A DNA stretch of 64,000 nt from contig NZ_JANAIF010000007.1 of NCBI RefSeq assembly GCF_024721015.1, positions 1 through 64,000 of the forward strand, in the 5' to 3' direction. Made by a program: the position numbers and the translations under genes. The DNA comes from Xenorhabdus bovienii (lineage in GTDB: Bacteria; Pseudomonadota; Gammaproteobacteria; Enterobacterales; Enterobacteriaceae). Of the stretch, positions 10,667 through 30,168 are shown piece after piece. The notes below the pieces were generated by a model, which did no database searches, was not told the DNA's origin, and worked only from the letters and a program-made list of their open reading frames with translations. Numbering within the stretch: the stretch's first letter is position 1; every line of letters begins with the position of its first letter.

Positions 10667-10742
<76 letters not shown>

Positions 10743-11350: not shown

Positions 11351-11426
<76 letters not shown>

Positions 11427-11605: not shown

Positions 11606-12247
11606 CTAGATATCTGGCTGATTGTTTGCTGGAAAGTTGAGACCATTCTCGATAATTAGAAATACTTCATCAAGAACATCAGAGTAAAGCATAGAAGAGT
11701 GTTTTTTCCGCTTCCAAACGTCATATGTAGCCCAATGTGCATAATCTAAAACGCCGGCTAAGACGCCTGGTCTAATATCTATTTTAGGGTCGGTTCCCAT
11801 ACGTTGAGCGATTAACGAAATGATAGGGGGTTTCCGATCCTCTCCGCGCTGAAGATTTTTTGCCCGAATTAAAGGATGGTTCCTTATCAAGTCTTGAAGG
11901 GTCATGAAACAGTTCGTATTAAAGCCATAAGAACCTCCTTCGCATCTTTTCATAATTTCGACAGCTGTATGCCGTAATGCTGATAACGCGGGTTCATGAG
12001 GCGGACGGCGGATGAGTGCGGCAATAAAGTCTTTGTGTTCTGCCTCTTGGTAGTCAAGGACAACATCTTCCTTTGAGGAAAAATATCGAAAAAAGGTGCG
12101 GGTAGAAACGTCAACTTTTTCAGTGATATCTTCTACTCGAGTTTCATCAAATCCCTTAATAGCAAAAAGTTCGTAAGATGTCTTAATTAGGGCATCCTTC
12201 AGCATAAGCTTCTTCCGCTCACGGCGGCCAACTTTTTCTCTATCTGT
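11606..12247 (-). CDS. TetR-family regulator divergent from the NRPS operon
   Basis: The 213-residue protein has an N-terminal TetR helix-turn-helix (about residues 17-60: IKTSYELFAIKGFDETRVEDITEKVDVSTRTFFRYFSSKEDVV) and an AcrR/MftR-like C-terminal ligand domain. I place the start at GTG 12247, preceded by AGGAGG at a 10-base distance. The first ATG at 12367 would add a 40-residue tail that overlaps the palindromic operators. It is transcribed away from pxaA across a 312-bp region with a 12+12 bp perfect palindrome, so it probably represses itself and pxaAB. The ligand is unknown. Confidence 0.85.
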   Translation of the reverse strand, partial: TDREKVGRRERKKLMLKDALIKTSYELFAIKGFDETRVEDITEKVDVSTRTFFRYFSSKEDVVLDYQEAEHKDFIAALIRRPPHEPALSALRHTAVEIMKRCEGGSYGFNTNCFMTLQDLIRNHPLIRAKNLQRGEDRKPPIISLIAQRMGTDPKIDIRPGVLAGVLDYAHWATYDVWKRKKHSSMLYSDVLDEVFLIIENGLNFPANNQPDI

Positions 12248-12354
12248 CACGCGCCTGTTTCCTCCTGTCTGGAATAAGTGATCTGTGTTTGAACCTCCAT
12301 TATTGCATAAAAGGACACTTATGTAATAGTTGACTAGTGATACTATTAGCAAAA

Positions 12355-12415
12355 TGTCATTTGACACAATATGTCATCGAGTGACATATTGTGCGTTCGA
12401 TAACATATTATGTCA
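12355..12415. promoter_or_regulatory. Cluster of three TGACA palindromes between tetR and pxaA
   Basis: Three inverted repeats lie side by side: TGTCA-TT-TGACA (12355-12366); CACAATATGTCA (12365-12376) with its exact complement TGACATATTGTG (12382-12393) around a 5-bp spacer; and TAACATATTATGTCA (12401-12415, one mismatch from perfect). They sit 108 bp from the tetR start and 145 bp from the pxaA start. This is the expected position of operators for the divergent TetR protein. Nothing else notable was seen in the remaining 12248-12559 interval. Confidence 0.75.
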
Positions 12416-12559: not shown

Positions 12560-15500
12560 ATGAGTATTGCAGAACCGACTTCGTACGAAAGGGATTTATG
12601 GGTTGAGGAGCTACATGATCCGCACTGCCATCAGTTCACAGTGGCTCTTAGTGAATTGTTACCCAGATCTATCGATCTCGTGAATCTCAAGAGGGTTGCT
12701 GAACAAGTTCTGGAGTCGGAGCAAGCTTCCCACAAGTCTTTTCACGAGCAAGAGGGGCATCTAGTTCTGAAGAAAGCTCCCGTTGTGGTTTGTGCCGAGT
12801 TATATGAATTCAAGAATGAAGACGACTTTGCCTCATTCTTCAAGGAGTGGCCTCGTAAGATTTGGGATCTTTCTGTTCCACCCTTGCTCGATATTGCGAT
12901 AGGCCAAACAGATCAGGCAACTATATTGATGATACGTGCCCACCACATCGTTGCCGACGGTTGGGGTCTGAATCTGTTGTCCAAGAAAATACTCGGTGCT
13001 TATGCGGATAATCATTTAGGTCTAAATGAACAGCTCAAAGGGGTGAAACGTTACGCGACAAAATATCCAACCCTGGAAGGCAGTAAACTTGATGAGGCAA
13101 TCGACGACGTCGTCGTGAAAATCGCTGATACCGATCCCGTATTATTCCCAAAATCTGGAGCGACTCTTTCGACATCCCCCAGCTATATCAGACCATTCAA
13201 GATATCAGCGCACGAAGTCGCTCATGGTATTGAAAATGGTTTTACTCCTTTTTTGGCTGTTTCAACGGCTCTGGCAGTTCTGCTGTCAAATGCATACGGA
13301 AGCGAGAAATTTTTCATTGGAGTGCCGTTTCTTAACAGAACCGATACAGAAATTACGTCAGTCAGTCACCGAGCTAATATTCTTCCCGTGAAAGTCGAGG
13401 TATTACCTCAAAATACACTCAGAGCAATTTACTCGCAGATCAAAGATTTTATCGTCTTTCTGAAAGACAAAGAATCGGTTCCGTTAGGGGGTATTATTTC
13501 TGCTCTGGCAAGTTCCTCTCGTCAACTTTTTGATGTAACAATGTCCTATCTGCGTTATCCAGAATGGGGGGCAATTGCTGGATTTGAAGAAAAAACCCAG
13601 AATATCGCGCACATACATACCCAGGATGCGATAGCAATTCATCTGTACACTTATGGCAATAATGCAGATGTTTGGGGAGATGTGTGTTTGAATAGCTCAG
13701 TATTTGATACTGAGGAATCAGCGAATGCATTCTTAGATACATTCATTCATCTTATCGATAATTTTGGTAATAATGTTGATAAGCGTGTGTCGGAAGTAAA
13801 CTTGCTGACATTTAAGCAAACGGAGCAGCTGCGACAGTATGAAAATGGGCCAACTAAGCCATACAGCGTGAATGAAACCGTTGTTTCGCTCTTTGAGGCT
13901 AAAGCCGAACAATTTCCTGAAAATATCGCTCTTCGAGATCACACTGGCACATCGCTTTCTTATTCTCAATTAAATGCATGGTCATCCACCATTGCCGCTG
14001 CGTTAGAAGAACGGGGAATCGGTCAGGGGGATATCGTGGCGGTATCAGTCGAGCGATCGCCAGAGATGTTGGCCGCAATATTTGGCGTCCTCAAAACTGG
14101 GGCAGCCTATTTACCCATTGATAGCGACTATCCCGAAGATCGTATTCAATATATGCTCAACGACAGCAACGCCAAGTTAGTCATTTCTAATCTGCCCCAC
14201 GTTATGAAATCTGATGATCCTCGTTGGTTTGATCTGGACGCTTTGCCAACTGAATTACCTTCTCATTATAAATACAAAAGCAAGGCCCAGCCTAATGAAC
14301 CCGCGTATGTGATCTATACGTCAGGTTCTACTGGTCGTCCCAAAGGGGTCATCGTCGAGCATCACTCAGTGGTTAATCGTTTAGAGTGGATGCAGGAAAT
14401 ACATCCGTTAACCAGTGACGATGTGATCCTCCAGAAAACGTCGATATCATTTGACGTTTCTGTGTGGGAGCTTTTTTGGTGGGCGATGACAGGAGCTTCT
14501 GTCGCACTCCTAAAACAAGGCGCACAACGGGATCCCAGGGAATTGATCCAGACAATTTCTACACACGGGGTAACGGTAGCGCATTTTGTGCCGTCAATGT
14601 TTGAACCGTATGTGCAAACTTTGAATGATGATAGACAGTCTCTTTTATCGGTTAGCAGTCTGAAATGCCTATTTACAAGTGGTGAAGCGTTAACACCCGC
14701 TGTCGTGAATAAATACAGGAAGATTTTCAGTCACGATATCTGTCCGCCAAGGCTAATTAATTTATATGGCCCGACGGAGGCAACGGTTGACGTAACCTAC
14801 TATGAATTAAATCTGGAACAGGATTCGGATATCAACGCAGTACCAATCGGTTTTCCGATCAACAATACCTCAGTGAGAATAGCCTCATTGCATGGGGTCA
14901 GGCAGCCTATAGGTATATCTGGAGAACTACAGATTGGCGGTGTGCAATTAGCGCGAGGTTATTTGAATCGTCCCGAGCTGACGGCAGAACGTTTTATTAT
15001 CGATCAGAATGACAGTTGCAGTCGCTGGTACCGAACGGGTGATCTCGCGGCTTGGGCTGAAGATGGATCCATCCTTTACCTCGGAAGGATGGATGGCCAA
15101 GTGAAGATACGCGGCAATCGCATAGAGCTTGGTGAAATCAAGAACGCCTTGCTTAACCTGCCAGAGGTGCTGAACGCGGAGGTTATCGTTGAAGATGATG
15201 CTCGGGGAAAACACCTGATTGCAGTCTATGTAGGCCGACGAGACTTGAATGAGCGTGATATTCGCGCAAAACTTGGGAAACAGCTTCCTTCCTTCATGGT
15301 TCCCGCAAGATTTGTCCGACTGGGGTGCATTCCTCTTACACCTAATGGAAAATTTGATCGCGTCAGTGCTCTCAGTGAGGTCAGTGGAAATAAAACATCT
15401 CCGCAGACAGTAAAACTTGATGAATCCGAAACGATTGTTGCCAAGATATGGGAGAAAGTACTCGGTCGGTCAAACATTAGTGCAGATGACGACTTCTATA

Positions 15501-18500
15501 CGCTTGGTGGCGATTCCATCTTGATGTTGAAAGTGAGATCAGAACTGGAAAGTCACGGGTATGGCGTTGGCTTATCCGATCTGGCGCAGTATACGACAGT
15601 GCGTAGCTTGGGAAATGTCCTCGAAAGTGTGTCACGTGTTCTCAGTAGCCCGAAAGAAGCACTTCCTCCTTTTTCTCTCATAAGTGAAATCGATCAAAAG
15701 AGGCTGAGTTCAGCATACGATGATGCTTATCCCGTATCTCAGCTGCAACTTGGCTTGCTTTTCCATAGTCGAGAGATGGAGGGCGCGAGAACTTACAAAG
15801 ATGTATTCCGATATACCCTGAAGTTGGCGTGGAATGAAGTCGCGTTCAGGTCTGCTTTGCAAGGATTGGCTCGTAGGCACCCCGCATTACGCACAGTTTT
15901 TAACCTTAGTGACTATCATCTACCCCTTCAGCTAATCAGACCGGAGATTCTAATTGATGATGTTTTATCAATTGAAACGCCTGATGTGGTTGAGTATGAG
16001 CATACAGTTCTTGCTCATATGGATAAGTGGTCACGGTATAATTATTCGTTCGCATCGGGACCCCTTTTCCACGTAGCGATATTTGCTAATAGTGAATCAA
16101 ACTACATCGACTTAGTTTTCAGCTTCCACCATGCGATTCTTGACGGAGGAAGCGTTGCAAACCTGATACGTGAGCTTCTTTTGTCCTATTCTCAGGGGAA
16201 TGATGGTGCCAATCTCGGTTACCCTGAAGACGAACTCCCAAATCCATCAATTTTTGTCCAAAACGAAATAGAAGTCCTTGAAGCGAGTGAGCCCAGGAGT
16301 TACTGGAAAGAATACCTCTCTGGCGCGACGAATACATTGCCAATAGGCTTGGCTGGATATTCAACTGCTCCAGTGAAGCGTATTTTTTCTTATCGTTTCC
16401 TAATAGATCCTGTACTTGATGCCGCACTTAATCAGCTGGCAAGAACTATTCGAGTCCCTATAAAGCATCTTTATCTTGCCGCTCATTGCACCGCCATTGC
16501 GTTAATGAGTGGTAAAGAGGACATCGTCACGGGTGTAGTGACACATACACGGCCGGAAATTAAGCACTCGGAGCGTATCCTGGGGCTATTTTTGAACACA
16601 CTTCCTTTAAGGGTTGATATAAAGAGTTTGAATTGGCTTCAGGTTGTCGAAGGGTTGTACCGAAATGAAAAAAGAAGTCATAAACATCGGCTCTTTCCTT
16701 TAAGCAAAATCCAAGCTGACAATGAATCGTTTTCTCTCCAGACCGCATTTAACTATGTACACTTTCATATATTGCAGGATATTTCTGAGAAGACAGATAT
16801 TGAAATCGTAGCCTTTGATACGAAGGAGGAAACAAATTTCGATATTCTGGTAAACGTAATGCGCGATGTTGATGGCAAACGTACGAGTGTTCGCATGGAT
16901 ATCAATGGAAGCGTTTATGCCAGAGAACAAGGGGCAGTTTTTTCCAGGCTCTTTAATCGTGCGTTAGAGCGAATAGCCTATCAACCAGAAATGCCCGTAT
17001 CCCTCAGTCGCCCGATTACTGAAGTTGGGTGCCTTGTGGAAAGAATTTCGGATAAGGCATTTATTTCACTTCCAGCCACGATCCGAAATAGCGTTCAACG
17101 TGATCCGGATGCAGTTGCCATCACGTATGGTGACAGCGAGTGGAGCTATCAGCAGTTATGGGATGCGGCGACAAGGATTGCCTTTTTGCTGAGTGAACGT
17201 GGTGTCAATAAGCAGGATGTGGTTGGAATTGCACTACCACGGTCGTTTGAACAAATTGCAACTGTCGTGGCTATTCTGAGGATGGGTGCTATTTGTCTTC
17301 CGATCGACTTATCATACCCGGCCAGCCGAATTGAGCTGATATTGAAAATAGCGAATCCGGCAGTGGTTGTAACCGATCGTTCTGTTACAGAGTTACCCTC
17401 AAGTGAGCGAGTACTTTTCCTTGAGTATGACTCAATTGAGGCGGTCGCTGAAAGAGACGATGCTGCGATAGATTCGACTGATGCGGCCTACATTCTATTT
17501 ACTTCCGGCTCAACGGGTACGCCTAAAGGCGTGACTATGCTGCATAGGGGATTGACCAATCTTGTTGGCTGGCAAAATAAAATAAGTAGTGGCGCCAAGG
17601 TTACCTCTACACTCCAGTTTTCGCCTTTGAGTTTCGATGTTTCTTTCCAGGAAATACTCTCCAGCCTCTCATCAGGTGCCACATTGCATCTGATTAGCGA
17701 GATGGAACGTCGAGATCCGGTAGCTTTGGTCAGGCATCTCGATCATAAAGGCGTTGAGCGGATATTCCTTCCGTACATCGCTTTGCAGCAACTCGCTGAG
17801 ACGGCAGTTATGCTGGGATTCTTTCCGAAGAAACTGCGGGTGATTGTCTCGTCTGGAGAGCAGTTGCGTGTCACCAAAGAGATACGGACGCTTGTCGATA
17901 ATCTACCTGGCGGCATATTGGAAAACCAGTATGGTCCAACCGAGACTCATGTGGTGACAAGTTACACTATGAGCAGTGATCCCAGCCAGTTTCCAGCACT
18001 TCCGCCGATTGGTATCCCGATCACGGGTGTCGGCATTGTGATCCTTGACGAGAGTTCAAATGTCGTTCCCGATGGGGTTCCTGGCGAAATCTGTGTGTTC
18101 GGAGAAGCTTTGGCATCGGGATATTACCGTTCGCCAGAGGAAACCAAGAAAAAGTTTATTGCACACGCCGACGTGCCAGGTGGGATGTTTTACCGGACGG
18201 GGGATATTGGCATCCGTTCAGCATGCGGCGAGATTATCAGCCTTGGTCGCAAGGATACACTGGTCAAAGTTCGTGGCTATAGAGTAGAACTCTCTGAAAT
18301 CGAGTTAAAAATCCTCGAATTCTTTGAAAACCGCCGAGAAAATGTTGAAGTAGCGGTTGTCGCTCGGCCTCGTGACGATCTGGATTCATACTTGATCGCC
18401 TACCTGGTGGGTAAGGAAGATCGTATTGCGTTGGAGGAACTTCGGCAGTTTATCGGAGCTGAATTACCCGCATATATGGTGCCGACACACATCACATGGA

Positions 18501-19702
18501 TAAATGAGCTTCCCAAGACACCGAGTGGCAAGCGTGATGATGCGATGCTCCGGAAACTGGATATACAGCTTGTATCAGAAAAAAATTATCGTGGCCCAGA
18601 AGGCGAGTATGAAAGCCGGCTTTGCGAGCTGACCGCAGAGCTACTGAAGATCCCCGAAATAGCCCCTGAGCAGAGTATTTTTGATTGCGGTGCGACTTCT
18701 TTGACTGCAATGCGCATAGTGGTTCTTGTCGAAAAACTGTATGGCATTAACGTACCGCTTTCGGCATTTGTCAGCGCGCCAACCATTGCGAAGCTTGCCA
18801 TGCTTATTCAAGATGGTGGTGGTCAGTTCAAGTTTGATCCACTTGTCCCACTGCGCGAAGCAGGTAACCGCAGGCCACTCTTCCTCGTACATCCTATGGG
18901 AGGAAATATCCTGTCATATCTGCGAATGCTTCCACACCTGCCATCTGATCAGCCACTTTATGCTCTTCAAGCATCGGGTGTTGATGCGGGTTCGTCACCA
19001 ATAACGACTATTGAAGAGCAGGCTGCTTTTTACATCGATGCGATCAAGAGAATCCAGCCGACGGGTCCTTATGTGATTGGTGGCTGGTCCTATGGTGGAT
19101 TTATCGCCTTCGAAATGGCGAATCAGTTAATCCGATCAGGAGAAACGGTCTCTAATGTTCTGATTCTTGATACGATGGCTCTGAGCTCACAGGCAAAAGG
19201 TCAGGCGAGCGATGATGCTTTGCTCAGTTGGTTCTTCTGGGAATTGCTGTGGACATCGAAGGGCTCTTCGTTACCTGTTCAGGTTGTTCCTTCCTATATC
19301 GAAAGTTTGCAAGAGAAATTCGAATATATAACTGATCATGCAACCCAGATAGGAGCGATCCCGGAAGGCAGCACAAAAGCAGTCATGCAGCGCCTCTTCG
19401 AGGTATATAATGCTAATTGGCAAGCTGCGGCTGAATACAACGCACAATGCCCGAATCTCGATGTGACGCTTATTCGCGCAAGGCAGCCTCTTCCTCAGAT
19501 ATTGCAAGAGATGCACAATACCATACGTAGTGAATATCATGATCCTCTGAATGGCTGGGGTGGCAAGACGTCTGGTCGAGTTAACTTGATTGAAGTGGAT
19601 GGTGATCATCTGACTATCATGGAAGAGCCTTTCGTTGGGCCAATGGTGTCGGCAATTATTACTGAGATTAATAAAGTGAAAGGGGTGGATGCTAATGTCT
19701 AG
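12560..19702 (+). CDS. pxaA: Two-module NRPS C-A(Ser)-T-C-A(Pro?)-T-TE, PxaA-like
   Basis: The 2380 residues read C-A-T-C-A-T-TE. Starter C domain HHIVADG is near residue 128. A1 has YTSGSTGRPKGV near 585, and its specificity positions read D-V-W-H-F-S-L-V-D by motif alignment, the serine code of EntF. T1 is LGGDSI near 984; C2 is HHAILDG near 1190. A2 has FTSGSTGTPKGV near 1646, and its code begins D-V-Q and ends V-V, consistent with proline. T2 (GATSL near 2044) and TE (GGWSYGG, Ser near 2176; late His in DGDHLTIMEEP) follow. An N-terminal C domain implies N-acylation of Ser. This architecture plus a downstream flavin monooxygenase matches pyrrolizixenamide synthetase; Pseudomonas brabantamide enzymes are close analogues. 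No MbtH, acyl ligase or PPTase gene is adjacent. GGAG precedes the ATG by 8 bases. Confidence 0.88.
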   Translation: MSIAEPTSYERDLWVEELHDPHCHQFTVALSELLPRSIDLVNLKRVAEQVLESEQASHKSFHEQEGHLVLKKAPVVVCAELYEFKNEDDFASFFKEWPRKIWDLSVPPLLDIAIGQTDQATILMIRAHHIVADGWGLNLLSKKILGAYADNHLGLNEQLKGVKRYATKYPTLEGSKLDEAIDDVVVKIADTDPVLFPKSGATLSTSPSYIRPFKISAHEVAHGIENGFTPFLAVSTALAVLLSNAYGSEKFFIGVPFLNRTDTEITSVSHRANILPVKVEVLPQNTLRAIYSQIKDFIVFLKDKESVPLGGIISALASSSRQLFDVTMSYLRYPEWGAIAGFEEKTQNIAHIHTQDAIAIHLYTYGNNADVWGDVCLNSSVFDTEESANAFLDTFIHLIDNFGNNVDKRVSEVNLLTFKQTEQLRQYENGPTKPYSVNETVVSLFEAKAEQFPENIALRDHTGTSLSYSQLNAWSSTIAAALEERGIGQGDIVAVSVERSPEMLAAIFGVLKTGAAYLPIDSDYPEDRIQYMLNDSNAKLVISNLPHVMKSDDPRWFDLDALPTELPSHYKYKSKAQPNEPAYVIYTSGSTGRPKGVIVEHHSVVNRLEWMQEIHPLTSDDVILQKTSISFDVSVWELFWWAMTGASVALLKQGAQRDPRELIQTISTHGVTVAHFVPSMFEPYVQTLNDDRQSLLSVSSLKCLFTSGEALTPAVVNKYRKIFSHDICPPRLINLYGPTEATVDVTYYELNLEQDSDINAVPIGFPINNTSVRIASLHGVRQPIGISGELQIGGVQLARGYLNRPELTAERFIIDQNDSCSRWYRTGDLAAWAEDGSILYLGRMDGQVKIRGNRIELGEIKNALLNLPEVLNAEVIVEDDARGKHLIAVYVGRRDLNERDIRAKLGKQLPSFMVPARFVRLGCIPLTPNGKFDRVSALSEVSGNKTSPQTVKLDESETIVAKIWEKVLGRSNISADDDFYTLGGDSILMLKVRSELESHGYGVGLSDLAQYTTVRSLGNVLESVSRVLSSPKEALPPFSLISEIDQKRLSSAYDDAYPVSQLQLGLLFHSREMEGARTYKDVFRYTLKLAWNEVAFRSALQGLARRHPALRTVFNLSDYHLPLQLIRPEILIDDVLSIETPDVVEYEHTVLAHMDKWSRYNYSFASGPLFHVAIFANSESNYIDLVFSFHHAILDGGSVANLIRELLLSYSQGNDGANLGYPEDELPNPSIFVQNEIEVLEASEPRSYWKEYLSGATNTLPIGLAGYSTAPVKRIFSYRFLIDPVLDAALNQLARTIRVPIKHLYLAAHCTAIALMSGKEDIVTGVVTHTRPEIKHSERILGLFLNTLPLRVDIKSLNWLQVVEGLYRNEKRSHKHRLFPLSKIQADNESFSLQTAFNYVHFHILQDISEKTDIEIVAFDTKEETNFDILVNVMRDVDGKRTSVRMDINGSVYAREQGAVFSRLFNRALERIAYQPEMPVSLSRPITEVGCLVERISDKAFISLPATIRNSVQRDPDAVAITYGDSEWSYQQLWDAATRIAFLLSERGVNKQDVVGIALPRSFEQIATVVAILRMGAICLPIDLSYPASRIELILKIANPAVVVTDRSVTELPSSERVLFLEYDSIEAVAERDDAAIDSTDAAYILFTSGSTGTPKGVTMLHRGLTNLVGWQNKISSGAKVTSTLQFSPLSFDVSFQEILSSLSSGATLHLISEMERRDPVALVRHLDHKGVERIFLPYIALQQLAETAVMLGFFPKKLRVIVSSGEQLRVTKEIRTLVDNLPGGILENQYGPTETHVVTSYTMSSDPSQFPALPPIGIPITGVGIVILDESSNVVPDGVPGEICVFGEALASGYYRSPEETKKKFIAHADVPGGMFYRTGDIGIRSACGEIISLGRKDTLVKVRGYRVELSEIELKILEFFENRRENVEVAVVARPRDDLDSYLIAYLVGKEDRIALEELRQFIGAELPAYMVPTHITWINELPKTPSGKRDDAMLRKLDIQLVSEKNYRGPEGEYESRLCELTAELLKIPEIAPEQSIFDCGATSLTAMRIVVLVEKLYGINVPLSAFVSAPTIAKLAMLIQDGGGQFKFDPLVPLREAGNRRPLFLVHPMGGNILSYLRMLPHLPSDQPLYALQASGVDAGSSPITTIEEQAAFYIDAIKRIQPTGPYVIGGWSYGGFIAFEMANQLIRSGETVSNVLILDTMALSSQAKGQASDDALLSWFFWELLWTSKGSSLPVQVVPSYIESLQEKFEYITDHATQIGAIPEGSTKAVMQRLFEVYNANWQAAAEYNAQCPNLDVTLIRARQPLPQILQEMHNTIRSEYHDPLNGWGGKTSGRVNLIEVDGDHLTIMEEPFVGPMVSAIITEINKVKGVDANV

Positions 19703-20870
19703 AAAACCTTCTGCGCTCATCGTCGGTACTGGTATCGGTGGGTTGTCATGCGCGATCGCATTGAAAAAAATTGGTTGGTCTGTGCGTCTCTTTGAGAAGA
19801 CGGACAGTTTACGAGCGACCGGATCGGGTCTGTCGGTAATGTCAAACGCCAGTTCGGCGATGAAGAAGCTGCTTGATATCGACCTCGGGTTGAAGAATTA
19901 TGGTGCTGAAGTTCGAGACTTTGAGATTCGGCATAGCTCAGGATTGCTCTTGAAGCGTCTCCCTGTTCAAAAAATCTCTGATGAGCAAGGCGCACCGAGT
20001 ATTTGCATATCAAGGGAAAACCTCCAGAGGGCGTTGTTGGATCAGCTTGGCGATGCTGATATTAGTTTTGGTAAGCGCGTAACTGGCTATAACGAAACTC
20101 ATGATGCCGTCCATATCAATTTTGAGGATGGCACCGTTTCATCGGGAGACATTATTGTCGGGGCTGATGGGTTTTATTCTGCAATTCGTGACGCGATCGG
20201 AACAGAATCTATTATCCAGGAAGCCAGTTATATTTGCTGGCTCGCCTTAGTTAAATACTCCCATCCCAAAATTACACCCGGCTACGTTGCCCATTATTGG
20301 GGGAGAGGGAAGCGTATGGGGATTGTAGATATCGGTGATGGCTGGGTGTATTGGTGGGGAACCGCGAATATGTCGAATGATGACGCCAAAAAATGGAAAG
20401 GTACGAATAGGGATGTAGCTAAGTTTTATGCGGGTTGGCCGGATCTTGTTCAAGACATCATTAACTCAACTGACAGTGAATCCATAATCACTGTTGACGC
20501 CAAAGATAGAACCTTCCCTGAAAATTGGACAAAGGGACGAGTGACTCTTCTCGGTGATGCAGCTCATCCGATGCTAACCAGTCTCGGTCAAGGTGCTGGA
20601 ATATCTATAGAAGATGCTGCGGTGCTGGGGTATGTGCTTAAAAATACTGAGGACTATAGTGCTGCGCTACGCCGATATGAAGCTATTCGGCAACCTCGTG
20701 CTCGCGCAATCGTCAACACCTCGCGATCTTTAAGTGATATTGAACAGCATGACCGCTTTTTCCCTTGTTTGGAGCGAGACGTTGGCATGTTGCTTACATC
20801 CAAAAAGTCCATGCGTAAACGGCTTCAGGATTCGCTGCTATTTGACGATCTCGCTATTCAAGCGCAATGA
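19695..20870 (+). CDS. pxaB: FAD-dependent monooxygenase, PxaB-like (ring-contracting)
   Basis: A group A flavoprotein monooxygenase. The Rossmann motif IVGTGIGGLSCAIALKKIGW is at the N terminus, GADGFYSAIRD near residue 155, and GRVTLLGDAAHPMLTSLGQGAGISIEDA near 280. The start at 19695 gives 391 residues and overlaps the NRPS gene by 8 bp, so the two are translationally coupled; an ATG two codons earlier is also possible. In the pyrrolizixenamide pathway, the partner enzyme oxidises the cyclised acyl-dehydroalanyl-proline intermediate in Baeyer-Villiger fashion, contracting it to a pyrrolizidine. That role is inferred here from family and gene order. Confidence 0.85.
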   Translation: MSRKPSALIVGTGIGGLSCAIALKKIGWSVRLFEKTDSLRATGSGLSVMSNASSAMKKLLDIDLGLKNYGAEVRDFEIRHSSGLLLKRLPVQKISDEQGAPSICISRENLQRALLDQLGDADISFGKRVTGYNETHDAVHINFEDGTVSSGDIIVGADGFYSAIRDAIGTESIIQEASYICWLALVKYSHPKITPGYVAHYWGRGKRMGIVDIGDGWVYWWGTANMSNDDAKKWKGTNRDVAKFYAGWPDLVQDIINSTDSESIITVDAKDRTFPENWTKGRVTLLGDAAHPMLTSLGQGAGISIEDAAVLGYVLKNTEDYSAALRRYEAIRQPRARAIVNTSRSLSDIEQHDRFFPCLERDVGMLLTSKKSMRKRLQDSLLFDDLAIQAQ

Positions 20871-21084: not shown

Positions 21085-24000
21085 TTATAGCTCTTCCAGT
21101 AATGCCTCCTTACGCTCCATCATGTTTTTTATCGCTTTTTGCTTAACATGACCGAAGCCACGGACTTGATCGGGCAGCTCCGCGAGTTGCTGACAGATCG
21201 CTAAATTATCGCGGTTCAGTTTTTCTATCAGAAAATCAAGTAATCGCTCATATTCGAGCAGTAAATTTCTTTCCTGTTTGCGTTCTTCCTGATAGCCGAA
21301 AATATCGAACATGGTTCCACGAAGTGGCTTACATGCGGCAAGAACGCGGAGGATAGGGATGATCCATGTGCCATATTCTTTTTTTCCTCTCTCGCCTGTA
21401 CGTGGGTCTTTGCGATTGAAAAGGGGCAGGCTGAGGTGAAAGCGAATGTTATCCGTATTATCAAACTGTGAGCGGAGATTCTCGAAAAAGTCGCTTTTGG
21501 CGTAGAGTCGCGCGACTTCATATTCATCCTTATAAGCCATTAGTTTAAATAAGTTTTCAGCGACCGATTTGGCAATTTCTTCTGCATCAATTTGTTGCGT
21601 GACCAGTTGAATCTGAGCAACGCGACTGAGATAACGCTGTGCATATCTTTCATTCTGGTAATCAACCAAAAATTGATATCGATGCATAATGAGATCATCC
21701 AGCGTCTTAATGCTTTTTTGCGGCTTGATGTGCAGGCGCTCATTCAGGATATCTGGCTGTACAGCAGCAATGCGGCCGATATGGAAAGCGCGTCGTGCAC
21801 TGTCTGTGGCATTGCCCAGTGCCTGAATGGTATGGTCGATAGCAGAAAGCGTGATTGGAATCTTGCCGAGCTGCCATGCATAACCGATTAATACGATATT
21901 TGTTTGGTTTCTGTCACCGACCAGATCAGCCGCCATTATTTCGGCATCAATGGAATTTAATGTTTGGCAGTGTTGGTGAAGAGTCGTCATCATCTTGGGA
22001 TGATCCAGATTCAGGGTGGGAGCCCGAAGCATAGTGCCGATTTGCGTTTCATGGGTATTGAGGACGCATTTCGTTGCATTTTTTGACATCACTGTCAGTG
22101 AATTTTGTCCCATTGTGGCCACTAAATCAGCCGCGATAACGAGATTAGCGCGCCCACGGTCAATTCTGACTTGATGTAGCTTATTCATATCATGGCATAA
22201 TCGGACATGGGTGATTGCTTCACCGCCTTTTTGTGCAAAGCCCGTAAAATTGAGCAGACTGACGGAATAATTATCCGCTTCGGCCGCAATCGCCAGTAAA
22301 TTCCCTGCTGTGACGATACCTGTACCACCTACGCCGACGAGCAGGATTTCATAAGGGTTATCGCTAATGATCGGTGTTGGCTGGGGTAATTCACGGAGTA
22401 ATTTGTCTAGATCGCCTTGCGGGATTATTTTACTGAGATCATGGCGTGGATTGGCATTTTCGACGGTGACAAAGCTGGGGCAAAACCCTTTCAGACAGGA
22501 TAGATCGGAGTTGCAGACGTGCTGATCGATCTTGCGTTTAGTCCCCAAAGGGGTTTTGACCGGGATCACTGCGAGGCAATTTGATTGTACCTGACAGTCA
22601 CCACATCCCTCACAGACCAACTCGTTAATCACGGCGCGTCGTGTCGCTTTCGGCTCCAGACCTCGCTTTCTCTTGCGGCGCAGTTCTGTGGCACAGGCCT
22701 GATCGTAGATAATTACGGTTACCCCCGCGATTTCTCGAAAGCGTTTCTGCACCTCTTCGAGGTAATCACGTTGATAGAGCGTCACCTTAGCGGGTAGCAG
22801 GTTTTTATCCTGATATTTATCAATATTATCTGTAACGATAGCGACTTCTTTGACCCCTTCAGCCAGCATTAAGGCCGCAATCTGCGATATGGTAAGATTG
22901 CCATCTAGTGGCTGTCCTCCAGTCATTGCCACAGCCTGATTAAATAGCAATTTATAAGTAATTCGATTGCCTGCGGCTACTGATTGGCGAATGGATAAAT
23001 GGCCGGAATGGAAATAGGTCCCATCGCCTAAATTCTGAAAGACATGGGGACGGTTGATAAAAGGTGAGTGTCCGACCCAGTCGGCACCTTCCCCTCCCAT
23101 TTGGACAAAACCAAATCCCGTATTGCGATCCATCCAAGCCGCCATGACATGACACCCAATACCAATATGGGCTTGGCTGCCGTCAGGTAAACGGGTTGAA
23201 GTGCTATGGGGACACCCTGCGCAGAAATAAGGCGTGCGTTTGGGAAGCGTGAGATCGTGTGGTGTTGTTTTGGTTGCCCATTCCAGAGGAACTGAGAGAA
23301 ACAAATCGAGTTTGTGTAGCCATCCAGAAAGCAGGGGAGTAATCAATGAAGGGCGTAACTCAATGTCTGCGGGTAAAAGTTGCTGGCCAAGATGGTTGTG
23401 TTTGCCTATCAGCTTAATATTTTTCTGTGAATTAACCAGATGGCGTGCCAGCAGTATCTCGACAACAGCGCTCTTCTCCTCAATAACAAAAATATCAGTG
23501 ACCTGTGAAGCAAGATCGCTGAGAAGCGGCGACAGAGGATAGACTAAGCGGACATGGACAAAAGCCACCCCTTGTTTGGCGAGTTGGGAAGGCGTTAAGC
23601 CTCCGGCACGTAAGGCTTCCAGCACATCTCGGTGAGCTTTGCCAACGGTGACCAGCAGGGCACGCGGATGGGCGCACGGGGCAAGGAGTTGATCGATCGG
23701 ATTAGCTCTGGCGAAGGCTTCAACGGCTTTAAGTTTATAGGCCAAGCGTTTCTCAATCTGTGGGCCGGGAAGATCAGGCCAGCGCCAATGCAGCCCATCT
23801 GGCCCAGAATCGATTTCAGGTGTTTCATACTCAGGAAAGGGTTTGCTTTCTCTGATAGCACTACTTTCCACAACTTCACTGATTGCTTTAAACCCGACCC
23901 AAGCCCCACTCGCGCGTGATGCCGCCCAGCCCCATAATCCTACATCGTGATAGTCAGAAACAGATGCTGGATGCAAAATCGGCATGCTCCAAGCCATTAA

Positions 24001-24453
24001 AGCGAGATCAGATTGATGGGACATGGAGGAGGAGACACAACCGTGGTCATCACCGAGGAGTACAAGTACCCCGCCGTGTGGTGAGGAGCCATAGGCGTTG
24101 CCATGCCTGAGCGCATCGCCAGAGCGATCCACTCCAGGCCCTTTGCCGTACCACATGCCAAAGACGCCGATAACATTCCGATCAGGGTCGGATTCGATTT
24201 TTTGAGTACCGATAAGTGCAGTGGCGGCTAGATCTTCGTTGATGGCAGGTTGAAAGCGAATATTGGCTTGAGCAAGTTCTTTACCATGCTGCCATAATGC
24301 CTGATCTAAACGAGCTAAGGGAGAGCCGCGATATCCAGAAACAAACCCCGCAGTGTTGAGATTATGGCTTTTATCCAGTTCAGCCTGAGCGAGTAAAAGC
24401 TCAGCAAGGGCATCAGTACCTGTGACAAATTTAGATGGATAATGTCGAGTCAT
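21085..24453 (-). CDS. Fused indolepyruvate ferredoxin oxidoreductase (2-oxoacid:acceptor oxidoreductase)
   Basis: This 1122-residue single-chain enzyme combines the alpha and beta parts of archaeal IorAB. The N-terminal part has GYRGSPLARLDQAL and a thiamine-diphosphate region (GMWYGKGPGVDRSGDALRHGN; FCAGCPHSTSTRLPDGS; GIGCHVMAAWMDR). A cysteine segment near residues 612-655 (CEGCGDCQ..C, CNSDLSCLKGFCP) is likely an Fe-S site. The gamma-type domain begins near 704 (GVGGTGIVTAGNLL). A C-terminal extension of about 230 residues follows. The enzyme oxidatively decarboxylates indole- or arylpyruvates to arylacetyl-CoA. It faces pxaB convergently and sits inside the tRNA-bounded segment. A functional link with the NRPS is possible but unproven. 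Confidence 0.88.
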   Translation of the reverse strand: MTRHYPSKFVTGTDALAELLLAQAELDKSHNLNTAGFVSGYRGSPLARLDQALWQHGKELAQANIRFQPAINEDLAATALIGTQKIESDPDRNVIGVFGMWYGKGPGVDRSGDALRHGNAYGSSPHGGVLVLLGDDHGCVSSSMSHQSDLALMAWSMPILHPASVSDYHDVGLWGWAASRASGAWVGFKAISEVVESSAIRESKPFPEYETPEIDSGPDGLHWRWPDLPGPQIEKRLAYKLKAVEAFARANPIDQLLAPCAHPRALLVTVGKAHRDVLEALRAGGLTPSQLAKQGVAFVHVRLVYPLSPLLSDLASQVTDIFVIEEKSAVVEILLARHLVNSQKNIKLIGKHNHLGQQLLPADIELRPSLITPLLSGWLHKLDLFLSVPLEWATKTTPHDLTLPKRTPYFCAGCPHSTSTRLPDGSQAHIGIGCHVMAAWMDRNTGFGFVQMGGEGADWVGHSPFINRPHVFQNLGDGTYFHSGHLSIRQSVAAGNRITYKLLFNQAVAMTGGQPLDGNLTISQIAALMLAEGVKEVAIVTDNIDKYQDKNLLPAKVTLYQRDYLEEVQKRFREIAGVTVIIYDQACATELRRKRKRGLEPKATRRAVINELVCEGCGDCQVQSNCLAVIPVKTPLGTKRKIDQHVCNSDLSCLKGFCPSFVTVENANPRHDLSKIIPQGDLDKLLRELPQPTPIISDNPYEILLVGVGGTGIVTAGNLLAIAAEADNYSVSLLNFTGFAQKGGEAITHVRLCHDMNKLHQVRIDRGRANLVIAADLVATMGQNSLTVMSKNATKCVLNTHETQIGTMLRAPTLNLDHPKMMTTLHQHCQTLNSIDAEIMAADLVGDRNQTNIVLIGYAWQLGKIPITLSAIDHTIQALGNATDSARRAFHIGRIAAVQPDILNERLHIKPQKSIKTLDDLIMHRYQFLVDYQNERYAQRYLSRVAQIQLVTQQIDAEEIAKSVAENLFKLMAYKDEYEVARLYAKSDFFENLRSQFDNTDNIRFHLSLPLFNRKDPRTGERGKKEYGTWIIPILRVLAACKPLRGTMFDIFGYQEERKQERNLLLEYERLLDFLIEKLNRDNLAICQQLAELPDQVRGFGHVKQKAIKNMMERKEALLEEL

Positions 24454-24788: not shown

Positions 24789-24864
<76 letters not shown>

Positions 24865-25065: not shown

Positions 25066-25995
25066 TCAAGTGGGTTCCCATACAGCTTGCCCGTGCCAAC
25101 AATCTTCAATTGCGGCAATAAACCCTTTCACCTTTGGAGACAGGTGCCGTTTTGTGGGGTAAACGGCACATATTGGCGGCTCAGTTCGGCAAAATCGATC
25201 TAATACGGGGACAAGGGTGCCGGCTGCTACTTGTTCGCCGACCAGGAAGGCACCAACTTGACATAAGCCGCACCCTTCTAAGGCTGCATCTCGCAACGCT
25301 TCTGTATTGTTGAAACGCATCCTTCCTTTGGCAGGGTAATCGCGGTGTTGGCTATTCACTTCGTAGTGCCACGGAACTGGCATACCTCGATGTGAGAACA
25401 CTAACGTGTCATGGTGCAACAGGTCATCTGGCACTTCAGGAATACCGTGAGTTTCTAAATAGTGGGGGGATGCACATGTAATGAGTCGGTGAGGAGCGAG
25501 AACCTTGCGAACGAGCCGGCTATCATCGTTACCGCCAATGCGAATGGTCAAATCGATCCCATCACGAACAAGGTCACTGTACTCGTCCGAAAACGTGACT
25601 TCCGCATCAACTTCAGGCCACCTCTCTAGGAAATTGCGGAGAATTGGCAAAACATGTAAGCGACCGAATGCCACAGGAAGATCGATACGAAGGTGTCCTT
25701 TTGGTGTTTGGTTCCGCTTGTTTATCACGTTTCCCGCTTCGTCGACTTCGGCCAAGATGCGTATAGCATGCTCATAAAACACCTGCCCTTCCTCGGTAAG
25801 GCTAACGCTTCTTGTGGTTCGGTGAATAAGCCTGGTAGTCAGGCATTTTTCCAGCCGGGTAATGCACTTCCCAGCAGCCGACCGCGATATCCCGAGTTTC
25901 TCGGCAGCCATTGTGAAACTGTGGGCATCAGCGACTCTTACAAACACTAAAATGTCGGATAAATGATCGAAAGGCATTTGTATTATATTAGCCAC
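25066..25995 (-). CDS. LysR-family transcriptional regulator
   Basis: 309 residues with an N-terminal LysR helix-turn-helix (residues ~10-65: DILVFVRVADAHSFTMAAEKLGISRSAAGKCITRLEKCLTTRLIHRTTRSVSLTEEG) and a periplasmic-binding-like effector domain. It resembles the large DsdC/YafC/AaeR-like enterobacterial group. It is divergent from the MFS gene at 26152 across 156 bp, the classic arrangement for a LysR activator controlling its neighbour. An alternative start at residue 7 (MPFDHL) is possible. The inducer is unknown. Confidence 0.87.
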   Translation of the reverse strand: MANIIQMPFDHLSDILVFVRVADAHSFTMAAEKLGISRSAAGKCITRLEKCLTTRLIHRTTRSVSLTEEGQVFYEHAIRILAEVDEAGNVINKRNQTPKGHLRIDLPVAFGRLHVLPILRNFLERWPEVDAEVTFSDEYSDLVRDGIDLTIRIGGNDDSRLVRKVLAPHRLITCASPHYLETHGIPEVPDDLLHHDTLVFSHRGMPVPWHYEVNSQHRDYPAKGRMRFNNTEALRDAALEGCGLCQVGAFLVGEQVAAGTLVPVLDRFCRTEPPICAVYPTKRHLSPKVKGFIAAIEDCWHGQAVWEPT

Positions 25996-26151: not shown

Positions 26152-27345
26152 ATGAACAGATCCCATCCGGTAGAGGAGCAAACAGGAAATGTTATGAGAC
26201 CGTGGTTAGCTGTGACTGCAATAGGTTTGTCAACGTTTTCCGTCGTTACAACCGAGATGTTACCTGTCGGTCTCTTGAATCCAATTGCGGATACGCTTAA
26301 CTCAACTGTCGGCACTGCTGGATTGATGATTTCGTTGCCGGCGCTGCTCGCTGCGTTATTTGCTCCGCTCGCTGTTCTCGCCTCTGGGGGCATAAACCGC
26401 AGAACGATCCTCTGTTTCCTTATTATCCTCCTTATTATGGCAAACATTGCATCGGCAACCGCAACCAGCATGAACTGGTTGTTGGCGGCACGCGTCATTG
26501 TCGGATTCTGCATGGGGGGGATTTGGGCTATCGCTGGTGGTCTGGCGGGGCGCTTGGTGTCACCAGGTTCTGTTGGTCTGGCGACATCGATTATTTTTGG
26601 GGGAGTTGCTGCGGCGTCTGTGTTCGGAGTACCACTAGGGGCATTTATTGGTGACGCTTTTGGGTGGCGTGCAGCATTTCTAGCAATGGCTATTTTAGCG
26701 ATGCTGGTGCTAATCCTCCTCATAAAATCATTACCATCACTTCCGGTGAATAACTCTGTAACAATAGGACAGTTTGCTGAGGTGCTTGCGAACCGAAAAG
26801 TTTTAGTCGGCCTTTTGGTCACGTTTTTTCTGGTCGCTGGTCATTTTATGGCGTACACATATGTACGACCACTGCTCCAGACCGTCTCCAAGTTTGATAA
26901 TAGCTGGATTAGTCCACTTTTGTTTGCCTACGGCCTTGCTGGAATAGCGGGGAATTTTCTTGCTGGCAGCATCGCTACGAAGCAACTTCGCTGGACTCTC
27001 GTGTTTATCGCAATTGGCATAACTGCTGCCGTTCTCCTTTTTTCTCCTTTGGGAGGATCTATCACAGGTGGTAGCCTCATTACTCTCTTGTGGGGCGTTG
27101 CGTATGGCGGAGTTTCGGTTTCGTTGATGACATGGATGATGATTGCTGCATCAAAGTCAATTGAAGTTGCGACCTCTCTTTACATCGCGATATTTAATAT
27201 TGGCATTGCGTCAGGATCGTTCCTTGGAAGCCAAGTTGTCGATAAATACGGACTTCTGACTAATACAACACTTGCTGGAGTGGTTGCCATTCTGGCGCTA
27301 GCTGTGCTCATATTTTCAAATATAAAAGCTGATCCTGCGCATTAA
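26152..27345 (+). CDS. MFS transporter, DHA1 family (AraJ/YdhP-like)
   Basis: 397 residues, about twelve membrane helices. The N-terminal AVTAIGLSTFSVVTTEMLPVGLLNPIAD and motif A-like APLAVLASGGINRRTIL are typical of the AraJ/SotB/NepI branch of DHA1 antiporters, which export sugars, purines or drugs. GAGGAAATTCA precedes the ATG. It is divergent from the LysR gene and is presumably its target. It might export a product made by the island but this is only inferred from position. Confidence 0.87.
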   Translation: MNRSHPVEEQTGNVMRPWLAVTAIGLSTFSVVTTEMLPVGLLNPIADTLNSTVGTAGLMISLPALLAALFAPLAVLASGGINRRTILCFLIILLIMANIASATATSMNWLLAARVIVGFCMGGIWAIAGGLAGRLVSPGSVGLATSIIFGGVAAASVFGVPLGAFIGDAFGWRAAFLAMAILAMLVLILLIKSLPSLPVNNSVTIGQFAEVLANRKVLVGLLVTFFLVAGHFMAYTYVRPLLQTVSKFDNSWISPLLFAYGLAGIAGNFLAGSIATKQLRWTLVFIAIGITAAVLLFSPLGGSITGGSLITLLWGVAYGGVSVSLMTWMMIAASKSIEVATSLYIAIFNIGIASGSFLGSQVVDKYGLLTNTTLAGVVAILALAVLIFSNIKADPAH

Positions 27346-27882: not shown

Positions 27883-29310
27883 ATGGTGATGTCTAGAGAA
27901 GATCTTTCCATTCTATCAGCGACTGAAATTTCCAAGCTTGTGCATCAAAAGGATGTTTCTGTCAGAGAAGTTGCTACTGCGGTGATTGCAAGACTTGACG
28001 GTGTCAACCCTCATATTAATGCGGTTGTTGAATATCGGCCGGAAGAGATTATAAGACGTGCTGAAGAGCTCGATATTGCACTTGCAAAAGGTGAGAGTGT
28101 GGGAACTCTCGCAGGTGTCCCTGTAACCATAAAAGCGAGCATAGATCAAATCGGGTTTGCAACGACAGACGGAGTCCGGGCCAGAGAACATGAGTTCCCT
28201 CCCTCCAACAGTGCGGTTGTCGATCACTTGCTGAAATCTGGGGCATTACTTATAGGGCGTACGAATACAGCTGCTTTTAGCTATCGCTGGTTCACCGAAA
28301 ATCGGCTATATGGATCAACGAGAAATCCGCATAATCCTTCTTTAACACCTGGGGGATCCTCTGGTGGTGCCGCAGCAGCAGTTGCTGCAGGTCTTGGTGC
28401 AATTGCGATAGGGACCGACTTGGCAGGTTCTATCCGGTATCCAGCGTATGCCTGCGGGGTTCACGGTTTGCGTCCTTCTTTCGGGCGAGTGGCGAGATTC
28501 AATCCGACTGATCCTGAAAAAGTGCCGATAGGGGTGCAGTTAATGGCTGTCACTGGGCCTGTTGCCAGAACTGTCAATGACTTGCGTCTAGCGATGGATG
28601 TCATTGCTAGAGAGGATATCCGCGATCCTTGGTGGGTACCAGCGCCCATGGTGGGTTACGATGCCCCGAAATGTGCAGCGTTCTGCGTGCGGCCAAATGG
28701 ATTGGATACCCAGCCAGACGTCGCGGACGCGCTTTATGATGCAGCAGGAAAACTGCGTGATGCAGGCTGGACAGTCGTCGAGTTGGAGGATATTCCCTCT
28801 CTCCGTTCAGCTTCGGATATTCAACTGACCCTATGGTTGGGTGAAGATTATGAGGGTCAACTCTTAGCGGTACAGGAAGACGGAGATCCCGGTGCGCTGA
28901 ACTTCTTGAACATGTACCGTGAATTTGCGCATTCCGTGTCTCTGGTCAATTACTCTTCGGCATTGAGTCGACTTCATACGATTGCGTGTGAATGGCAACA
29001 GTTTCTCTCTGAAAAGTTTGCGGTGATCCTTTTACCGACTTCAGCAGAATTGCCATTCTCTAACAATCTGGATCTTGAATGTGAAACTTCATTTATGCGG
29101 GTCTGGAATAGTCAAATGCCAATGCTTACGCTCCCTGTTACAGGGCTCCCTTGTGTCAATCTCCGGACAAATTTGATTTCCACTCCTTCCGGGGAAACGA
29201 TACCAGTGGGTATTCAGATAGTGAGTGCACGCTTTCGAGAAGATCTATGCCTGAAAGCAGCAGAGGATATTGAAAAAAGGGGAGAACCTGTCGAAGTTGT
29301 CACTCCGTGA
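27883..29310 (+). CDS. Amidase-signature family enzyme (GatA/AtzF-like)
   Basis: 475 residues of the amidase signature family. The Ser-cisSer-Lys triad is visible: Lys in PVTIKASID (about residue 87), the cis-Ser in TPGGSSGGAAAAVAAG (about 160), and the nucleophile in GTDLAGSIRYPA (about 185). The family hydrolyses amides, aryl-amides or carbamates. The C-terminal half is ordinary for stand-alone amidases. It is not GatA, since no gatB/gatC neighbours are present. The start is ambiguous between 27883 and 27889. It follows the gcd remnant by 56 bp; substrate unknown. Confidence 0.87.
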   Translation: MVMSREDLSILSATEISKLVHQKDVSVREVATAVIARLDGVNPHINAVVEYRPEEIIRRAEELDIALAKGESVGTLAGVPVTIKASIDQIGFATTDGVRAREHEFPPSNSAVVDHLLKSGALLIGRTNTAAFSYRWFTENRLYGSTRNPHNPSLTPGGSSGGAAAAVAAGLGAIAIGTDLAGSIRYPAYACGVHGLRPSFGRVARFNPTDPEKVPIGVQLMAVTGPVARTVNDLRLAMDVIAREDIRDPWWVPAPMVGYDAPKCAAFCVRPNGLDTQPDVADALYDAAGKLRDAGWTVVELEDIPSLRSASDIQLTLWLGEDYEGQLLAVQEDGDPGALNFLNMYREFAHSVSLVNYSSALSRLHTIACEWQQFLSEKFAVILLPTSAELPFSNNLDLECETSFMRVWNSQMPMLTLPVTGLPCVNLRTNLISTPSGETIPVGIQIVSARFREDLCLKAAEDIEKRGEPVEVVTP

Positions 29311-29337
29311 GCGTTATAGCGGTGCTATCTTAGCCCT

Positions 29338-29708
29338 ATGTTGCTGGATGTAGGATATTTCTGGATCAATGCGGCCCGTGTAAGGCATATGGGAAAGGCT
29401 TATAGACCGATAAAAGAAACGATCATCGGCTTTACACGAGGCCTCATGGCGTTCGCATTCAGAGATGTCGATCTTTCTTGTCTTGGCCTGGCCTGCTGTG
29501 TGCCGCCATTGGGCTGGCGACAGGCAACTTTGAAAATGCCAGAGGGCTGTTTGCCAACTTATCTGATCATCAGTTGCTGGCTGTTTATAGCGGTGCTTTC
29601 AGTGTCTTGACATACACCTTGATGGGAATAACGTTATTGGCTGTTATGGTTTGTTTTATGACTTTGAGAAAAGTCCAAATAGCTTTTAATTCTGGTGTGT
29701 CAAAGTGA
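29338..29708 (+). pseudogene. Decayed membrane-protein fragment, possibly an MFS C terminus
   Basis: Two overlapping frames carry pieces of one apparent protein. One reads GFTRGLMAFAFRDVD. The other (29478-29708) reads LLCAAIGLATGNFENARGLFANLSDHQLLAVYSGAFSVLTYTLMGITLLAVMVCFMTLRKV, with two hydrophobic segments like the last helices of a multidrug MFS protein. The need to change frame and the missing N-terminal bulk suggest a frameshifted remnant. Family assignment is weak. Confidence 0.4.
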
Positions 29709-30168
29709 CGGTTAAATATTTTTCAGGGGAAGTTATCAGAATTTTATATTAATGAAATAAATATTCTGGGATATATAAATCAAGATAAAAAAGAAAGTAT
29801 TAGAAATAAATAAAGATTTATATTTTTAATTCATTATATTTAATAAGCCCTATGCGAAATTCTAACTTTTGTTGATTAAATTAATCTGACTATTATTGGT
29901 TAATATGATAATGCTGGAATTTTATGTCGCTTTTATAGTTAATCCACAGGAACATATCTCGGTATTTTTCGGTACATAGAATGGTGTCGGAAATACGAAA
30001 ATCGGGCAATGTTAATGAAAGAGGTTTCTCTCACATATTAAGATCGGTGATTCACTTCCTGATAATGGAGGAATAATTATCTTTGTATATTAAGCGCTCT
30101 GTACTGAATAGAAAGATTTCTTTTCTTGACTTTTAAAAGTCGTGATCAGTGATAGGAGAGTAAAAAAG
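29709..30168. other. AT-rich gap before the hpaB-like gene
   Basis: 460 bases without a credible reading frame and strongly AT-rich, typical of a junction between accessory blocks. The last 20 bases hold the ribosome binding site (AGGAG at 30154-30158) of the next gene. A TTGACTTTTAAAAG stretch near 30127 could be part of its promoter. Confidence 0.5.

Follow-up and report, generated by a model that had tools for sequence, protein, structure and literature searches.

The window analysed here, a stretch of 64,000 nucleotides of DNA from the insect-killing bacterium Xenorhabdus bovienii (positions 1 to 64,000 of contig NZ_JANAIF010000007.1), carries at 12560-20870 a gene for a bimodular nonribosomal peptide synthetase (NRPS) and, overlapping its end, a gene for a Baeyer-Villiger-type monooxygenase (BVMO). 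The pair is very likely best described as pyrrolizixenamide-type, a second lineage that is shared with Pseudomonas and has its own TetR gene. We read it, at a probability of roughly 0.72, as a TetR-controlled minimal two-gene route to an N-acylated pyrrolizidine alkaloid, of a lineage sister to, and distinct from, that of pxaAB. An earlier reading of the letters alone (the sequence-only reading) had matched the pair to pxaA/pxaB; its assignment of the chemistry class is probably right, but the match itself is not supported, the pair taken for that of X. stockiae falling in a different clade.

Two lineages of the pair and their distribution

The oxygenase family, searched at E <= 1e-60, occurs at 19 places in 18 of 30 Xenorhabdus genomes. 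At all 18 of the further Xenorhabdus places fetched (every one except the window) a full-length synthetase lies beside the oxygenase, so the tandem pair is more than chance. The 19 pairs split into a minor clade of four (the window, L031, L032 and L033) and a common clade of 15. Identities of the window synthetase and oxygenase are 95% and 97% to L031, 65% and 74% to L032, and 63% and 74% to L033; to the 15 common-clade loci they are 42-45% and 48-54%. One assembly, G023 (X. hominickii), carries a pair of each clade, and its pair match is identical to the named record NZ_NJAI01000008.1 of X. hominickii DSM 17903; the contamination estimate of the assembly is 7, so co-occurrence in one strain is not proven.

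PxaA/PxaB have been studied from X. stockiae DSM 17904 (PMC11177316, PMC11794875). A genome of this species was sought using the docking domains of synthetases Kj12A, Kj12B and Kj12C, whose structures are solved. We take these to come from X. stockiae KJ12.1, the species being our assumption (the source text gives "Xenorhabdus KJ12.1" only). The Kj12B docking domain is 100% identical over 61 residues in genome G004, the next of the 30 genomes reaching 89%; those of Kj12A (61 residues) and Kj12C (58 residues), compared with five loci only, are likewise 100% identical there. G004 is accordingly taken for X. stockiae. Its single pair, L047, belongs to the common clade, it has no minor-clade pair, and L047 is 45% (synthetase) and 48% (oxygenase) identical to the window. 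Orthology to pxaAB is rejected on this tree placement and these identities; because the only pair of G004 is of the common clade, the window pair most likely represents, by descent, a lineage sister to pxaAB and not pxaAB itself. A weak second hint comes from X. poinarii G6, for which a pyrrolizixenamide A cluster has been listed (PMC10371910): G014, which we take to be that strain, carries a common-clade pair and no other.

That the pair is simply pxaAB by descent, making pyrrolizixenamides A-D, thus seems very unlikely. Domain architecture, serine code, type of A2 pocket and oxygenase family are all alike, and a cluster of X. bovienii MEL2.2 bears the label pyrrolizixenamide A at 43% similarity to BGC0001873 (PMC12377575; a label only). 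Against this stand the low identity to the X. stockiae-type pair, the well-supported separate clade, the pair's own regulator, the lack of a minor-clade pair in G004, and the X. hominickii assembly with one pair per clade; the trees contradict this descent, unless G004 is not X. stockiae. The MEL2.2 cluster may itself be of the window's lineage, and two lineages may be hidden under a label like "pyrrolizixenamide A, 43%". The parts of the literature reached by our search hold no report of the two clades.

Beyond Xenorhabdus, 398 genomes of a gammaproteobacterial family taken for Pseudomonadaceae were searched. The family label is inferred from the centre genome, which has several strong OprD genes, from brabantamide- and azetidomonamide-type layouts, and from a flank of locus L155 whose DNA matches a Pseudomonas mandelii plasmid record at 82% identity. 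The oxygenase is found at E <= 1e-70 in eight of the 398, of which seven were fetched (not G783). Two of these Pseudomonas-type loci, L155 and L156, fall in the minor clade, with synthetases 64% and 60%, and oxygenases 72% and 69%, identical to those of the window. They are the nearest relatives outside Xenorhabdus among the genomes searched, and the minor clade in full consists of four Xenorhabdus and two Pseudomonas-type loci. Their gene order is TetR, NRPS, BVMO, short-chain dehydrogenase/reductase (SDR), aldehyde-dehydrogenase-like (ALDH-like) and phosphopantetheinyl transferase (PPTase), with a major facilitator superfamily (MFS) gene next in L155; the clusters span L155:4845-18822 and L156:4821-17368. 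Among 80 named loci retained after scanning the genomes, at least nine (L050-L058) adjoin a long synthetase homologue, one in X. hominickii and eight in Streptomyces. Nine Streptomyces loci have an adjacent NRPS (L049, L051-L058), and seven entered the trees and code tables, L054 and L057 being left out for genes split in the open reading frame (ORF) calls. The seven are 39-42% (synthetase) and 41-45% (oxygenase) identical to the window.

Trees of 33 pairs, with fused oxygenases trimmed to about 420 residues before comparison, place the minor-clade Xenorhabdus loci together with L155 and L156 (support 100/100 for the oxygenase; 100 for the synthetase by the Shimodaira-Hasegawa-like approximate likelihood ratio test, SH-aLRT). 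With midpoint rooting the minor clade joins the common clade (99/98 and 100), and the four Xenorhabdus members still cluster together (92/100 and 85). The likeness of the cassette across families is as high as inside the genus: for the window oxygenase, identity stands at 74% with both L032 and L033 and at 72% and 69% with the Pseudomonas-type loci. The window MutL is 81-97% identical to that of four Xenorhabdus genomes and 59-60%, over its first half only, to that of the two Pseudomonas-type genomes. Such likeness across families would fit horizontal movement of the cassette, judged by one marker gene. Excess divergence within the genus was dropped as evidence of transfer, since common-clade oxygenases are likewise only 70-76% identical between most species (70-76% to L047 in 13 of 14, 88% in the other). 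Base composition (46.5% vs 45.8% for the window) is uninformative on import.

The synthetase, the monooxygenase and the predicted product

The synthetase gene (12560-19702, forward strand; ORF call and Pfam) encodes 2380 aa with the order C-A-T-C-A-T-TE, for condensation (C), adenylation (A), thiolation (T) and thioesterase (TE) domains. Pfam finds two AMP-binding, two PP-binding, one Thioesterase and three Condensation stretches, C1 being split in two. The starter condensation domain C1 (12560-13849), recognised by its HHIVADG motif, fits Pfam poorly: its two stretches score weakly, at 40.9 and 43.5 bits, vs 183.8 bits for C2. It is followed by A1 (13892-15364; Pfam and motif-anchored code), T1 (15437-15649; LGGDS motif), C2 (15722-17002; Condensation family match, motif HHAILDGGSV), A2 (17084-18532; code and A-domain tree), T2 (18617-18799; Pfam, GATS motif) and the thioesterase (18872-19624; Pfam Thioesterase, GWSYGG motif), all on the forward strand. 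Every active-site motif is intact (HHIVADG, HHAILDGG, GGDS, GATS, GWSYGG), in agreement with the architecture first proposed.

Adenylation codes were read by anchoring on conserved motifs, with GrsA numbering as we remember it. The A1 code, DVWHFSLVDK, is one we take to be like the serine code of EntF, and its predicted specificity is serine, as the sequence-only reading held; it is identical in 17 of 19 Xenorhabdus loci and shows a single V-to-I change in the other two. The A2 code is DVQFVSQVVK, which upholds the earlier D-V-Q-?-V-S-Q-V-V and supplies F as its missing letter. The suggestion drawn from it, that chemistry could vary because A2 departs from the textbook, is not supported: Ser301 and Gln322 occur in A2 of all 19 Xenorhabdus pairs (including all 15 common-clade loci), in both minor-clade Pseudomonas-type pairs and in five of seven Streptomyces pairs. 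The odd code is, by this distribution, a lineage trait whose letters alone predict no other chemistry, and an unusual A2 selecting a new amino acid is rejected on the same counts. The textbook pattern for proline, DVQF(S/N)AHVVK, is kept by brabantamide-type A2 domains. A tree was built of 52 A domains, drawn from 17 of the 33 pairs and supplemented by 18 others; in it the A2 domains from the 17 synthetases form one clade (SH-aLRT 100), which brabantamide-type A2 joins first under midpoint rooting, apart from the included serine and rhabdopeptide-type A domains. The window A2 thus clusters with X. stockiae-type and brabantamide-type A2, not away from proline-activating domains. As it groups with proline-type A2 and as the A2 of PxaA is reported to be Pro-specific, accepting azetidine-2-carboxylate as well (PMC11794875), it is most likely a proline domain.

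The monooxygenase gene (19689-20870, forward strand; ORF call and Pfam FAD_binding_3) encodes a flavin adenine dinucleotide-dependent protein of 393 aa, with an alternative start at 19695. The 8-bp overlap with the synthetase gene reported earlier holds from this second ATG; from the first (19689) the overlap is 14 bp. By alignment, H202, Y221 and W223 correspond to H200, Y219 and W221 of LgnC, and the LgnC-type H/Y/W set is found in 33 of 33 oxygenases compared. With Ala in place of H200 or W221, LgnC loses its activity; Y219F costs 95% of it (PMC11457151). The protein is a member of the PxaB/LgnC/BraC family with the predicted catalytic set of LgnC.

A route can be proposed from these parts. 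The starter C domain would load a fatty acyl chain onto serine activated by A1; C2 would dehydrate the acyl-Ser and join the product to proline activated by A2; and release by the thioesterase would cyclise the chain into a bicyclic indolizinone. Into this the monooxygenase would then insert oxygen in a Baeyer-Villiger step to give a seven-membered oxazepine-dione, which would fall apart in water to a pyrrolizidine, the expected end product given the lack of tailoring enzymes beside the pair. Dehydration of acyl-Ser by an equivalent C2 domain has been shown for LgnD (PMC8748450), and the chemistry of PxaA/PxaB is published, with a non-enzymatic last step (PMC11177316). The codes, the A2 grouping and the LgnC residues make the sequence of acylation, dehydration, proline addition and oxidation in the sequence-only reading still the best one, though every reaction in it is inferred.

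The end point depends on the acyl chain and the oxygenase. PxaB and BraC both yield the oxazepine-dione, from which the pyrrolizidine forms without an enzyme; bicyclic carbamates arise from BraC, or from PxaB efficiently only with a 3-hydroxy C14 chain (PMC11177316). Because the outcome is chain-dependent, the window product is predicted to be a pyrrolizidine unless chain or oxygenase favours the carbamate. A route in which one of the two diverts the oxazepine-dione into a bicyclic carbamate resembling brabantamide is unlikely in our judgement, even with BraC giving carbamates from all five substrates 3a-e, PxaB doing so efficiently with 3-hydroxylated C14 (PMC11177316), and the window C1 being distant from PxaA-type C1. 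The window oxygenase is nearer to the PxaB type than to the BraC type (40-42% identical to four brabantamide-type loci), the 64-kb window holds no BraA-like gene, and the pyrrolizidine is the major product with either enzyme in the published assays (PMC11177316).

For the pyrrolizidine route, the feature most likely to vary is the acyl chain, for which the sequence-only reading had rightly pointed to the starter C domain. By domain, the window is 28% (C1), 52% (A1), 41% (C2), 49% (A2) and 57% (TE) identical to L047, and 47%, 73%, 59%, 68% and 77% identical to L155. Its C1 is 95% identical to that of L031 and 42-48% to those of L032, L033, L155 and L156, and across the eight loci compared, whichever the clade, C1 shows the lowest conservation among the five large domains. 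Identity climbs at the C1-A1 linker, which fits a starter-domain swap or fast evolution. Since C1 is only 28% identical to the PxaA type while A1, A2 and TE are at 49-57%, the window pair probably installs another acyl chain than the unsubstituted C6-C8 ones of the pyrrolizixenamides.

The divergent regulator and the surrounding genes

A gene for a TetR-family regulator (11606-12250, reverse strand; Pfam TetR_N) diverges from the NRPS gene; its longest ORF extends to 12367, and homologues suggest a start near 12250. The gene is present in the same place in five of six minor-clade loci, at 97% identity in L031 and 63-67% in L033, L155 and L156. At E <= 1e-30 it is found in three of 30 Xenorhabdus genomes, each with a minor-clade pair, and the 15 common-clade neighbourhoods yield no match. 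A consensus scan gives a promoter-like site for the NRPS gene, TTGACA-18-CATATT (12361-12390, forward strand; 10 of 12 matches); seven such sites in the region vs 2.5 (standard deviation 1.5) in shuffles are alone no sign of function. A pattern search places an operator-like palindrome, ATGTCA-N5-TGACAT (12371-12387), in the spacer of this best site, with a 3-base overlap with the second hexamer. No other exact match occurs in the window (0.00 expected). L031 and L033 carry the palindrome without a mismatch, and in L032 and L155 the best intergenic site departs from it at one position; among 2000 mononucleotide shuffles of each stretch, a site this good or better arose in 1 for L155 and in 4 for L032. 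The sole other exact copy in the genome (on C222) lies inside an NRPS coding region and was rejected as a TetR target. It would appear that the TetR protein binds the palindrome in the NRPS promoter and probably represses the pair, and that regulation probably differs from that of the PxaA-type pair.

Tailoring genes accompany some relatives. SDR genes lie directly downstream in L155, L156 and L033 (two in tandem in the last), ALDH-like and PPTase genes in L155 and L156, and a PapA-like gene in L033. The X. hominickii minor-clade cluster with its tandem SDRs and PapA-like gene (L033:950-4906) is possibly an azabicyclene-like branch in Xenorhabdus. In Streptomyces coffeae (L058:10001-12535) an 844-aa oxygenase ORF runs into a PapA-like region (41% identical to the X. 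hominickii gene) and is followed by an SDR match, which suggests a fused oxygenase-acyltransferase. A search at E <= 1e-8 for homologues of these SDR, PapA-like, ALDH-like and PPTase proteins found none in L031, L032 or the 64-kb window, and Pfam on 17 window ORFs (4316 to 38251) names no P450, FabH or AzeJ-type gene.

These genes bear on a further explanation, that enzymes encoded elsewhere in the genome tailor the product to an azabicyclene- or clipibicyclene-like compound. We give it the least credence of the alternatives: the SDR genes directly downstream in three clade members speak for it, as does the PapA-like protein of L033, which is 62.8% identical to its counterpart in the azetidomonamide-type locus L157, but the search, which covered only the 64-kb window of the host genome besides L031 and L032, found none of the four types there. 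The host genome comprises 4,553,391 bases in 517 contigs, with 64 condensation-domain family matches.

ARAGORN identifies three tRNA-Gly(gcc) genes on the forward strand, at 10667-10742, 11351-11426 and 24789-24864. The second and third mark the left and right edges of a segment holding the TetR, NRPS and BVMO genes and an indolepyruvate:ferredoxin oxidoreductase gene (21085-24453, reverse strand; NCBIfam NF009588, 1457 bits), which converges with the oxygenase gene. The same segment lies between tRNA-Gly genes at 4461 and 17910 in L031, the 95% relative; L032 and L033, as far as they were fetched, do not show this flanking arrangement. A role of the oxidoreductase in the pathway is judged unlikely, as its gene is on the opposite strand, matches only L031 among L031-L048, and is not among the ORFs listed for L155 and L156. 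Past the third tRNA copy lie a LysR gene (25066-25995, reverse strand) and an MFS gene (26152-27345, forward strand), homologues of which (69% and 64% identical) sit directly downstream of the X. hominickii common-clade pair L034. Amidase and HpaB-type hydroxylase genes (27883-31602) lie between the cassette and queG.

Strength of the reading and comparison with known systems

Several observations weigh against the reading of the pair as a TetR-controlled sister of pxaAB with its own acyl chain. The synthetase tree and the A-domain tree both carry long-branch and composition warnings. The TetR gene was not found at E <= 1e-30 in L032 (genome G021), one of the six clade members, and the best intergenic palindrome site in L156 has three mismatches. 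Genome-wide, sites with at most one mismatch number 10 vs 6 for a reversed control, so that only position and conservation lend the palindrome weight. Rapid change of C1 is seen in the common clade as well (61-71% identity vs 77-82% for A1, in three loci), and a different chain does not follow from its divergence by itself. No product of any minor-clade member was found in the portions of the literature searched, nor any characterised product, of a non-pyrrolizidine pathway or otherwise, for the closest homologues.

A bolder version can be put forward tentatively, as a possibility well short of even odds: a second Xenorhabdus pyrrolizidine-type family, built on a TetR-NRPS-oxygenase cassette shared with Pseudomonas, with its own operator and a different, perhaps hydroxylated, acyl chain, whose product may be partly a bicyclic carbamate and may already have been mined as pyrrolizixenamide. 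The lineage split shows which strains (the window host, its close relative, X. hominickii and some Pseudomonas) to mine for new acyl-pyrrolizidines or carbamates. The window oxygenase is a further natural enzyme for studying the influence of the acyl chain on the choice between a pyrrolizidine and a brabantamide-type product; the 2024 work on BraC and PxaB calls for structural comparison (PMC11177316).

The clusters of L155 and L156 share clade and gene order with the window (TetR 63-67%, NRPS 60-64%, BVMO 69-72% identical); their SDR, ALDH-like and PPTase genes have no homologue found in the window, and we know of no product of such clusters. Locus L157, with genes for ClpP, a PapA-like protein, SDR, P450, SnoaL, FabH and an acyl carrier protein, has what we take to be the layout of the azetidomonamide cluster of P. 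aeruginosa; a 247-aa S-adenosylmethionine-type protein nearby is AzeJ-like as judged by eye. Its NRPS and BVMO are homologous to those of the window and its A2 code is DMQLVSQQVK; membership of the window pair in this azetidomonamide/azabicyclene type is rejected, as the pair is distant and PapA-like and SDR genes were not found in the window.

In gene layout, loci L158-L161 agree with the brabantamide cluster described in PMC4493835, and each has a BraA-like glycosyltransferase gene (by Pfam in L158; by tblastn at 89-91% in the other three). The chemistry of brabantamide braABC is alike up to the oxazepine-dione, by way of indolizinone and oxygenase. Brabantamide membership is rejected for the window pair: its synthetase is 31-33% and its oxygenase 40-42% identical to those of these loci (brabantamide-type by layout), with which it does not group, and tblastn with the L158 enzyme, which matched L158-L161 at 89-100%, found no BraA-like gene in the 64-kb window. 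Legonmycin (LgnA-D) has the oxygenase family and its catalytic residues in common with the window. It uses Thr, a split A-T / C-T-C-A-T-TE pair and a shuttle by a type II thioesterase (PMC8748450), unlike the window, which has a single synthetase with a serine code. PxaA/PxaB (X. stockiae; MIBiG BGC0001873 from X. szentirmaii) are alike in the C-A-T-C-A-T-TE order, the adjacent oxygenase with H/Y/W, the A1 serine code, and Ser301/Gln322 in the proline pocket of A2. As represented by L047, they differ in the A2 code (DVQYISQVIK vs DVQFVSQVVK) and in C1 (28% identity), and belong to the sister clade; the window pair, unlike them, has a linked divergent TetR gene and a palindrome.

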